Made by a program: the position numbers and the translations under genes. A stretch of 64,000 nt of DNA, taken from assembly GCF_003402535.2 (NCBI RefSeq), contig NZ_AP025171.1, forward strand, positions 1,240,001-1,304,000. The letters are read 5' to 3'. Under the pieces are notes generated by a model, which was given only the letters and a program-made list of their open reading frames with translations, was not told the origin of the DNA and ran no database searches. The number at the start of each line of letters is the position of its first letter. The stretch's first letter is position 1. Source of the DNA: Cupriavidus sp. P-10 (GTDB taxonomy: Bacteria; Pseudomonadota; Gammaproteobacteria; Burkholderiales; Burkholderiaceae). Positions 20,388 to 25,994 of this stretch are shown here, piece by piece.

Positions 20388-21158
20388 TCAGTTAAGCGCT
20401 TCCAGCGCGGCCAGGTCGAGCAGCTCGATGCCGCCGTATTCCAGCCGCAGCAGGCCGCGCGCCTCGAGTTCGCGCAGGGCGTGGTTGACGGTCTGGCGCG
20501 ACAGCCCCAGCATCTGCGCCAGCTGTTCCTGCGGTATGCGCACGCGCAGCACCGCATCGGCATGCGCCGGCAGGTTGCCATAGCCATGCGCGATCGCGGC
20601 CAGGCGCCGGGCAATACGTGCCGCCGGCGGCAGCAGCTGCGTTTCCTCGACATAGTCGAAGGCCTGGCGCGTCTTCGCCGCGAGCAGTTGTCCGAATGCC
20701 TGCCACCATGCCGGATGCTGCGCCAGGCGCCGCTCCAGCGGCGCGCGCGGCACGTGCCAGAGGGCCGCAGCGCTGACCGCGCGCGCGTCGTGTGTGCGCG
20801 GCAGCCCGTCGAACAGGCAGATCTCGCCGAACCAGGTGCCGGGTTCGAGCAGGCCCAGCAGCGCCGCCTTGCCCGATTCGCCGCTGGCGTGGATCTGCAC
20901 GGTGCCGCTGGCCACGCAGTACAGGCCGTCGAAGCGGTCGCCTCGGGCAAACAAGGTCTCGCCAGGCACCAGCCGGCGCAGGCTGCCGTCGTCGAGCAGT
21001 GCCTGGCGCAACGCCGGCGGCAGCTGGCTGAACCATGCGCCGGCGCGCACCGCGGCGAGCGGGTCGTCACCCGGCGGTGCGGCGTCCGGCTGCGCGCTTG
21101 CGTGCGCGGGACTGGCCGGCAGCGGTGCGTGGCGGTGCGGCGGGGGCGCGGATCCCAT
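20388..21158 (-). CDS. Crp/Fnr-family transcriptional regulator
   Basis: This is a 256-residue regulator. An Ala/Pro/His-rich head of about 35 residues is followed by a cyclic-nucleotide-binding-like domain (ETLFARGDRFDGLYCVASGT, PGTWFGEICLFDG), a dimer helix, and a C-terminal winged HTH (RIPQEQLAQMLGLSRQTVNH). There is no N-terminal Cys cluster, so it is not an oxygen-sensing FNR. The recognition helix SRQTVNHALRELE differs from the FNR E-x-x-SR pattern. ATG 21158 is chosen because AGGAGACCG stands just before it; the frame is open further upstream. Effector unknown. Confidence 0.9.
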   Translation of the reverse strand: MGSAPPPHRHAPLPASPAHASAQPDAAPPGDDPLAAVRAGAWFSQLPPALRQALLDDGSLRRLVPGETLFARGDRFDGLYCVASGTVQIHASGESGKAALLGLLEPGTWFGEICLFDGLPRTHDARAVSAAALWHVPRAPLERRLAQHPAWWQAFGQLLAAKTRQAFDYVEETQLLPPAARIARRLAAIAHGYGNLPAHADAVLRVRIPQEQLAQMLGLSRQTVNHALRELEARGLLRLEYGGIELLDLAALEALN

Positions 21159-24947: not shown

Positions 24948-25406
24948 ATGGCGACCAAAGCTAAACCGACCGCGAAGACTGCAACCAAGCCCGCTGCCAA
25001 GAAGGCTGCGGCAACCAAGGCACCCGTGAAGGCTGCCGCCAAGAAGGCCGCGCCGGCCAAGAAGGCTGCTCCCGCCGCTGCGCCCGTTGCGCGCCCGCTG
25101 AAGGACACCTTCAACAAGTCGAGCCTGGTCGCTCACCTGGTAACCCAGACGGAACTGGAAGCCAAGACCGTGAAGACGGTGCTGGCCCATCTGGAAAACA
25201 CCATCGTCAGCGCGCTGAACAAGAAGGGCGCTGGTGAATTCACGCTGCCGGGCCTGCTGAAGGTGACGGCACAGCAAGTTCCCGCAAAGAAGAAGCGCTT
25301 CGGCAAGGACCCGTTCACCGGTGAAGAGCGTTGGTTCCCGGCCAAGCCGGCCAGCGTCAAGGTGAAGGTGCGCCCGCTGAAGAAGCTGAAGGACGCCGCG
25401 GCCTGA
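24948..25406 (+). CDS. HU-like DNA-binding protein with histone-H1-like Lys/Ala tail
   Basis: This 152-residue nucleoid protein has an N-terminal tail of about 50 residues made of Lys, Ala, Thr and Pro (KPTAKTATKPAAKKAAATKA and more), like the tails of AlgP or histone H1. Then comes an HU/IHF-type fold (KSSLVAHLVTQTELEAKTVK, GAGEFTLPGLLKVTAQQVPA, KKKRFGKDPFTGEERWFPAK, SVKVKVRPLKKLKD). The beta-arm has GKDPFTGEERW rather than the HU arm RNPxTGE. ATG 24948 (MATKAKPT) is the usual start of such proteins; an in-frame ATG at 24900 would add 16 residues. It carries its own promoter and terminator and is likely abundant. Role in chromosome packing is inferred from family. Confidence 0.9.
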   Translation: MATKAKPTAKTATKPAAKKAAATKAPVKAAAKKAAPAKKAAPAAAPVARPLKDTFNKSSLVAHLVTQTELEAKTVKTVLAHLENTIVSALNKKGAGEFTLPGLLKVTAQQVPAKKKRFGKDPFTGEERWFPAKPASVKVKVRPLKKLKDAAA

Positions 25407-25427: not shown

Positions 25428-25460
25428 AAAAAAAGGAGCCGCTCGCGGCTCCTTTTTTCA
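25428..25460 (+). terminator. Terminator of the AlgP-like HU gene
   Basis: Stem GGAGCCG (25435-25441) pairs with CGGCTCC (25446-25452) over a CTCG loop, with A-run before and T-run after. It is active on either strand. Confidence 0.9.
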
Positions 25461-25482: not shown

Positions 25483-25496
25483 TTAATCAAGGTCAA
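25483..25496 (+). promoter_or_regulatory. FNR/ANR-type box
   Basis: TTAAT, four bases, GTCAA matches TTGAT-N4-ATCAA at 8 of 10 positions. Its centre (25489.5) is 41.5 bp before the start site predicted from the TAGAAT -10 element (25519-25524). This is the class II activator position. Confidence 0.6.
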
Positions 25497-25529
25497 TCCG
25501 CCGCCGCGCCTCGCCGCCTAGAATCTCAA

Positions 25530-25619
25530 ACGTCATGGGTGCGGGGGCGCTCCCCGTGACAGGCTTCGGCGTCTTCCCCGAAGCTGGTGCCCGCGGCCTG
25601 CGAAGGCCGCGGGTTTTTT
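25530..25619 (+). ncRNA. Candidate FNR-controlled small RNA
   Basis: No protein is encoded between the HU-like gene terminator and the convergent tautomerase gene, yet the plus strand shows a complete small transcription unit: an FNR-like box, a TAGAAT -10, and about 90 nt with three stem-loops. Stem 1 pairs CGGGG (25542-25546) with CCCCG (25552-25556), extended by GTCA/TGAC. Stem 2 pairs GCTTCGG (25563-25569) with CCGAAGC (25578-25584) and has the pyrimidine loop CGTCTTCC. Stem 3 is a 9-bp terminator (25590-25598 with 25605-25613) ending in six T. The layout resembles FNR-induced riboregulators such as FnrS or PhrS, but there is no recognisable sequence likeness. The pyrimidine loop could pair with ribosome-binding sites. 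Confidence 0.6.
25590..25619 (+). terminator. Terminator of the candidate small RNA
   Basis: Stem CCCGCGGCC (25590-25598) pairs with GGCCGCGGG (25605-25613), with a 6-nt loop and a T run. On the minus strand no T run follows, so it does not serve the tautomerase gene. Confidence 0.85.
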
Positions 25620-25625
25620 ATTGGC

Positions 25626-25994
25626 TCAGGCAATGACCTGCTTGGCGAAAGTGGCGCGCTGCATCTCGCACACTTCCACCGATACCTGTACCGATTGCCC
25701 GCCGTCCACGCCGGTGCGCACGGCATCGGCGATCACGTCGCAGACGGCCTGGCCGAGCGCCTGGCGCACGGCGGTGTCGCGCCCATCCAGGATCGACAGG
25801 CGCGCATGCACGAAAGCGCGATCAGCGGCGTCCACGCCCTGGCGGTAGGTCGAAAGCGTGATGCAGCGCGACTTGATATCGGCCTCCTGGAACTGCCCCG
25901 ATGCCAGCAGCGCGGCGTTGGCTTCATCGAGCAACTCTTCCTGCGAGCAGTTCAGGCGGGTGTTTTCCGTGAGTTCGATGACGAGGTGGGGCAT
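25626..25994 (-). CDS. 5-carboxymethyl-2-hydroxymuconate isomerase-like tautomerase
   Basis: This 122-residue protein starts MPHLVIELTENTRLN, giving Pro2 as the N-terminal catalytic base used by tautomerases after Met removal. The rest (LDEANAALLASGQFQEADIK, RCITLSTYRQGVD, AFVHARLSILDGRD) follows the CHMI family, which isomerises a dienoic acid in homoprotocatechuate degradation. No other genes of that pathway are nearby, so the substrate may differ. The frame continues upstream to 26054, but ATG 25994 is required to place Pro at position 2. Confidence 0.9.
   Translation of the reverse strand: MPHLVIELTENTRLNCSQEELLDEANAALLASGQFQEADIKSRCITLSTYRQGVDAADRAFVHARLSILDGRDTAVRQALGQAVCDVIADAVRTGVDGGQSVQVSVEVCEMQRATFAKQVIA

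Follow-up and report, generated by a model that had tools for sequence, protein, structure and literature searches.

The locus lies in a 64-kb stretch of DNA from a Cupriavidus genome, hereafter called the window. A sequence-only reading had placed there, between two convergent genes, a transcription unit that would yield a small RNA (sRNA) under the control of the oxygen regulator FNR. Domain searches bear out the setting, with an HU-type gene on the plus strand and a gene of the 5-carboxymethyl-2-hydroxymuconate isomerase (CHMI) family on the minus strand flanking the sRNA locus. The features of the unit and its neighbours are as follows.

24948..25406, plus strand: upstream convergent gene for an HU-type DNA-binding protein (PF00216), by domain search
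25435..25458, plus strand: terminator-like hairpin with a T run, 3' of the upstream HU-type gene, read from the sequence
25483..25496, plus strand: FNR-type box TTAATCAAGGTCAA, centre 25489.5, matching TTGAT-N4-ATCAA at 8/10 positions, read from the sequence
25519..25524, plus strand: -10 hexamer TAGAAT, 22 nt 3' of the box, read from the sequence
25531..25620, plus strand: predicted sRNA (type A) of about 90 nt, with a start deduced from the promoter; by fold, covariance model and covariation
25532..25560, plus strand: hairpin 1, containing the nearly invariant core TGCGGGGGCGC; by fold, conservation and covariation
25562..25585, plus strand: hairpin 2, whose loop holds CGTCTTCC at 25570-25577; by minimum free energy (MFE) fold
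25589..25620, plus strand: intrinsic terminator, a stem-loop at 25589-25614 followed by a T run; by terminator scan, fold and covariation
25626..25994, minus strand: downstream convergent gene of the CHMI family (PF02962), by domain search

The promoter described by the earlier reading was confirmed at its original coordinates: adding 41.5 to the box centre at 25489.5 gives the predicted start at 25531, so that the 8/10 box stands at -41.5, upstream of the TAGAAT hexamer. FNR-type boxes with at most two mismatches number 16 in the 64-kb window, against 5.5 expected. Such a box is unremarkable by itself; its combination with the spacing and the -10 hexamer is not chance. The pattern TTAAY-N4-RTCAA-N22-TANNNT has a single match in the 9.08-Mb genome, namely the window locus, and none in the backwards control. 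A generic sigma-70 scan called no promoter at the sRNA locus, as expected if an activator box stands in for the -35 element.

The RNA from 25531 to 25620 folds into three hairpins with an MFE of -55.9 kcal/mol (z -4.56), a stability equalled by none of 200 dinucleotide shuffles. This fold and the terminator scan agree with the proposed RNA of about 90 nt carrying three stem-loops, the last being a terminator with a T run. The minus strand at the locus folds nearly as well (z -4.45), so the strand is given not by folding alone but by the box, the -10 hexamer and the T run. The predicted sRNA scores 99.4 bits against a covariance model whose training set included the window sequence. Between the upstream HU-type gene and the sRNA unit stands the hairpin at 25435-25458, which is absent from the pattern-scan listing of terminators. 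The HU-type protein itself has an N-terminal tail rich in lysine and alanine, resembling histone H1. No Rfam family reached its gathering cut-off in the window, which fits the earlier remark that the RNA bears no sequence likeness to the FNR-controlled sRNAs of other bacteria, and none of the 25 matches listed for eight loci with related copies (types B and C, described below) reached its cut-off. As far as Rfam 15 tells, this is a new sRNA family, and we regard the window locus as almost certainly a real sRNA gene.

Conservation of the box, the -10 hexamer and the stems in relatives that keep the flanking genes had been named as a check on the prediction, and all of these are kept together. 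The type A unit stands beside the HU-like gene in 21/21 loci tested and beside the CHMI gene in 20 of the same 21, the window's own being counted in both cases. BLAST against 60 genomes, including the window's own, gave matches with E of 0.01 or less in 22; besides the window, thirteen strong orthologues were found, all from Cupriavidus, and the weaker matches were in part paralogues and in part chance. Among 14 type A sequences, block conservation is 0.74 and 0.76 for the box, 0.41 for the spacer, 0.68 and 0.62 for the blocks sharing the -10 hexamer and 0.99, 1.00 and 0.84 for hairpin 1, the core of which is the most conserved part of the unit and had drawn no comment in the sequence-only reading; conservation is also high in the neighbouring 3' end of the downstream gene (0.66-0.83).

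Two covariance models charted the reach of the family. The first, built from 17 sequences, had matches with E of 0.01 or less in 65/299 Burkholderiaceae genomes; the genus accounts for 40 of these and other genera for 25 (best non-genus E 1.3e-4). Of the places outside the genus, 14 of the 27 weak ones were read, and none had both core and box. The second, built from 53 sequences, matched 59/60 genomes of the genus, including 54/54 of good quality, and the only genome without a match is 54% complete. In 399 genomes of the order it matched 13, three of the genus and ten others, and all ten of the latter were read without finding core and box combined. We therefore rejected members in other genera, since the places read lacked the combination of box and core and were mostly a terminator behind some other sequence. 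The whole architecture, searched as a pattern, occurred three times in the window's genome; the backwards control had no match, nor had any of 368 further genomes from the class. Searches over more than 40 genomes ran with stricter filters, so that remote relatives may be missed. The records of the family include two titled Ralstonia sp. 25mfcol4.1 and Burkholderiaceae bacterium 16. A conserved hairpin and terminator, CATGCG...CGCATGGGAC, was also seen at three places in another genus of Burkholderiaceae; no FNR box was seen there, and this is possibly another sRNA.

In the window's genome, the type A copy on the second contig (C2) is accompanied by two paralogues on the largest contig (C1), both located as model matches.

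C1:2115050-2115144, minus strand: type B paralogue, with box TTGACCGCGATCAA
C1:3525761-3525860, plus strand: type C paralogue, with box TTGACGTGAGTCAA

Both boxes fit the FNR consensus better than that of the window, and the type B box is followed by the -10 hexamer TACCAT. Reading 26 further places in the genus taken from model matches yielded 25 members, the remaining place being a weak match that is no member (in genome G026). All 25 members had been found through the RNA model and not through the box, and each carries TTGAY-N4-RTCAA upstream. A hairpin pattern search gave 138 distinct sequences (identical 150-nt stretches were merged, and hairpins less than 80 nt from the start of a stretch or less than 110 nt from its end were left out). 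A box of at least 7/10 at -52 to -50 from CATG is present in 106 of these and absent from 32; record titles, listed for 80 of 115 stretches, were available for 24 of the box-less sequences, none of them Cupriavidus, and the box-less set does not include the Ralstonia record mentioned above. A simple sequence rule divides the boxed sequences into 28 of type A, 46 of type B and 32 of type C. Type A has TTAAYC-N3-GTCAA and TAGAAT at the same spacing in 28/28 distinct sequences. Type B has TTGAY-N4-RTCAA in 43/46 and CTGAY in the other three, and TANNNT follows after 22 nt in 44/46. In type C the TTGAY-N4-RTCAA box is found in 32/32 and TANNNT at that spacing in 0/32, the -10 position being occupied by CATCAT, CACACT and similar hexamers.

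Copy number rises to four or five in a few genomes. In the window's genome, type B has a ferritin-like gene on one side (domain search) and on the other a gene that we take to resemble one for a sulfate-binding protein. A search of 72,556 plasmid records found no match to type A and three to type B, all from Cupriavidus: two are records of the megaplasmid pHG1 of C. necator H16, and the third is a C. taiwanensis plasmid, which matches at two places. The pHG1 copy (type B; NC_005241.1, 222726-222833) is flanked by phaP2 and hmpA and has nap genes some 5 kb away; the gene table consulted, which leaves out RNA genes, shows nothing at the position of the copy itself. By eye, a ferritin-like reading frame ends just before this copy, as it does beside the chromosomal type B. 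One further genome (G008) has two copies on a single 361-kb contig, one of them identical in sequence to a C. taiwanensis copy, and this contig may be a plasmid of the same kind.

In all 106 distinct members the MFE fold has three hairpins and a paired GCG-GGGG-CGC core. A scripted test of the tail failed in 8/46 type B sequences; the script had ended these after 75-76 nt, most probably at an internal run of T. Because the core was part of the hairpin search pattern, its invariance was judged instead on sequences derived from BLAST and the models; there, hairpin 1 keeps UGCGGGGGCGC nearly unchanged in all three types, with departures in single members (UGCGGGGGCGU in one, ACGCGGGGGCGC in the type C copy of the window's genome). 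In the 53-sequence alignment, standard pairs fill 98.2% of the pair cells, 13/21 pairs are changed on both sides and the covariation score is 0.352, against 0.158 in shuffled and at most 0.072 in slid alignments; this alignment was fitted to the structure, and for five of the eight pairs of stem 1 the double change comes from two sequences each. In an unfitted alignment of 17 sequences, RNAalifold gave double changes in 3/21 pairs, and the consensus fold contained only hairpins 1 and 3, hairpin 2 being missing. Around the UGCGGGGGCGC core, stem 1 alternates between GGG/CCC, GGA/UCC and GAA/UUC, and these changes in step point to selection on the core as RNA.

The strict class II pattern TTGAY-N4-RTCAA-N22-TANNNT has five sites in the 9.08-Mb genome and none in the backwards control. 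Two precede ccoN (785 bits vs a cut-off of 583) and hemN (554 bits vs 325), which are classical FNR target genes; another precedes a gene for a P-type cation ATPase (Pfam ATPase-cat_bd; the partial sequence scanned stayed below the cut-off of every NCBIfam model), a fourth a fatty acid desaturase gene (PF00487), and the fifth is the promoter of the type B sRNA. Of these genes, the desaturase is the least expected. Types A (the window) and C are not among the five sites. The window box has the class II geometry, at -41.5 with the -10 hexamer at 22 nt, though not the strict TTGAY form: it lacks the G of the upstream half-site, which reads TTAAY in 28/28 type A sequences, whereas types B and C have TTGAY or CTGAY there. 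This fixed half-site may mean a weaker response or the choice of another member of the regulator family.

Twelve of the 23 Crp-type matches in the genome were examined. Four of these have the full set of cluster cysteines and count as FNR-type proteins; the other eight lack the FNR cysteines. The FNR-type four keep C20, C23, C29 and C122 together with the DNA-contact residues E209, S212 and R213 of Escherichia coli FNR, and the one scanned reached 245.3 bits against the NCBIfam Fnr cut-off of 228. The window also holds a Crp-family regulator gene, represented by its helix-turn-helix part (20394-20621, minus strand), about 5 kb from the sRNA; it has no FNR cysteines, and its recognition helix differs from that of FNR. 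The better boxes of the paralogues, the same layout before ccoN and hemN and the presence of four FNR-type proteins strengthen the assignment to FNR made in the sequence-only reading. For the family as a whole, we consider control by an FNR-type protein highly probable, and for the window copy alone somewhat less so.

Each type carries a UC-rich segment, located by eye: type A has it in the loop of hairpin 2 (CGUCUUCC), types B and C in the stretch that joins hairpins 1 and 2. The earlier suggestion that the middle loop pairs with ribosome-binding sites found no backing in the sole candidate tried: sdhC, a TCA-cycle gene chosen by analogy with the Neisseria sRNA NmsR, which directly represses TCA-cycle mRNAs, gave no convincing duplex in a comparison that used a crude choice of start codons, 45 window ORFs as null and the 5' region of one sdhC copy inspected by eye. 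Nor is GGAGACA, considered as a typical Shine-Dalgarno context for type B, significantly enriched, as it occurs twice in the window vs 0.69 expected and 13/100 shuffles gave an equal count. A 24-nt near-complement of hairpin 1 on C1 (locus L002, about 1501-1524) lies in a leader that we take to stand between genes for a malonyl-CoA decarboxylase-like and a Bug/TctC-like binding protein. It was judged to be chance and not conserved, its part CGCCCCCGC being in place in 4/24 orthologous leaders of an alignment for which 30 loci were fetched and in which one of the 24 rows had no letters.

Other explanations differ in what they take the unit to be and what reads it. The locus might hold no RNA gene at all, only a conserved terminator or repeat where two genes converge, a reading to which the weak model matches of bare terminators in other genera lend some colour; against the conserved box, -10 hexamer and spacing, the layout shared by unlinked paralogues and the separate terminator of the upstream gene, it has hardly any likelihood left. 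Equally far-fetched is a small protein or leader peptide. An ATG does lie within hairpin 1, and many type B members read by eye as an 8-codon ORF, but the core nucleotides fall in a different frame in type A than in types B and C, stem 2 changes length in steps that are not multiples of three, and the predicted start leaves no space for a Shine-Dalgarno sequence before the ATG.

The two remaining alternatives accept an sRNA and are unlikely rather than negligible. The promoter could be read by another Crp/Fnr-family protein that recognizes the same box, for example one of the DNR/NnrR type, which senses nitric oxide. Eight of the twelve Crp-type proteins examined (23 matches in the genome) are without FNR cysteines, type A boxes are unlike those of types B and C, and the pHG1 copy lies close to hmpA and nap genes, all of which would suit such a regulator; the same promoter layout before ccoN and hemN speaks for FNR instead. 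As for the action of the RNA, hairpin 1 might do most of the work, either by binding a protein or as a sponge, and leave the UC-rich parts a secondary role. The near invariance of UGCGGGGGCGC across the three types while the surrounding stem covaries, and the variation of the UC-rich parts from type to type, favour this idea, to which we give little weight: no known protein motif could be named for the core, and the type B members read hold UUGUCUACCCGUUUCC with few changes, which argues that this segment works too, although the segment was part of the rule defining type B in the 138-sequence count.

The reading that we prefer, and consider probable from comparative sequence analysis, is that of an FNR-switched low-oxygen sRNA, one of three paralogous Cupriavidus types, which most likely pairs with Shine-Dalgarno sequences. 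When oxygen becomes scarce, an FNR-type regulator would switch the gene on by binding the box at -41.5 and recruiting RNA polymerase to the -10 hexamer, and the transcript of about 90 nt would end at its own terminator. Its UC-rich segment would then most likely pair with the Shine-Dalgarno regions of mRNAs that are unneeded without oxygen, most likely assisted by an RNA chaperone such as Hfq, and hairpin 1 would be a module common to the three types, to which a protein or one and the same partner binds. That antisense silencing is the main action seems to us somewhat better than an even bet. More speculatively, the FNR-controlled trio may share the UGCGGGGGCGC hairpin as a new protein- or RNA-bound module, with the three UC-rich segments giving separate targets, and so form a split low-oxygen riboregulon; we put this forward as a tentative possibility.

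C. necator H16 serves as the standard organism in work on hydrogen-based growth and on bioplastic, and in the absence of oxygen it can respire nitrate. An sRNA family present in several copies under FNR-type promoters, one of them on pHG1, would add a posttranscriptional layer to the oxygen response of this strain, and the family is directly testable there. The split riboregulon, if true, would belong to bacteria with uses in hydrogen and CO2 biotechnology.

A functional parallel is FnrS of E. coli, a stand-alone sRNA under FNR control, to which the Cupriavidus RNAs correspond in being stand-alone and, by prediction, under FNR-type control. Its Rfam model (RF01796) matched none of the three sRNA loci; one match elsewhere in the genome stayed below the cut-off (E 0.527), and in a control the model matched 7/14 named genomes including E. 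coli, above the cut-off in one. In six comparisons of local likeness to FnrS, three type B copies gave shuffle p values of 0.002, 0.018 and 0.032, and types A and C gave 0.078, 0.172 and 0.272, none of them significant. Homology to FnrS was thus set aside, being suggestive for type B alone with the model negative. PhrS of Pseudomonas is another sRNA tied to oxygen limitation. With it and with AniS of Neisseria, for which such a tie is described in passages of PMC5362039, the Cupriavidus RNAs would share the predicted link to oxygen limitation, and they are set apart from both by the Rfam models only. The Burkholderia anti-hemB RNA (RNA 7, RF02837) matches weakly at 25551-25621, covering hairpin 2 and the terminator (E 8.5e-4), but the score of 23.9 bits falls short of 49.5, the match omits most of hairpin 1 and the promoter, and the neighbours at the window locus are not hemB.

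In build, the family resembles the Neisseria siblings NmsRA and NmsRB (RcoF, NgncR), which passages of PMC5362039 describe as having three stem-loops (SL), with UC-rich anti-Shine-Dalgarno segments in the SL2 loop and in the linker from SL1 to SL2. To the extent of that description, the Cupriavidus sRNAs are alike in having three stem-loops by MFE, and their UC-rich segments, read by eye, are candidate anti-Shine-Dalgarno elements. The NmsR model (RF02877) aligns over its full length to a type B copy, with 27.9 bits vs a cut-off of 52 and an E of 0.0059 for a 131-base stretch (0.78 in the original 17-kb search). Judged by the family models, the Cupriavidus RNAs belong neither to NmsR nor to FnrS. 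The two families differ in arrangement and in control: in the same passages of PMC5362039 the NmsRA and NmsRB genes are adjacent and under RelA control, whereas the Cupriavidus copies are unlinked and carry FNR-type boxes. Control like that of FnrS and a build like that of NmsR would join two designs in one RNA.
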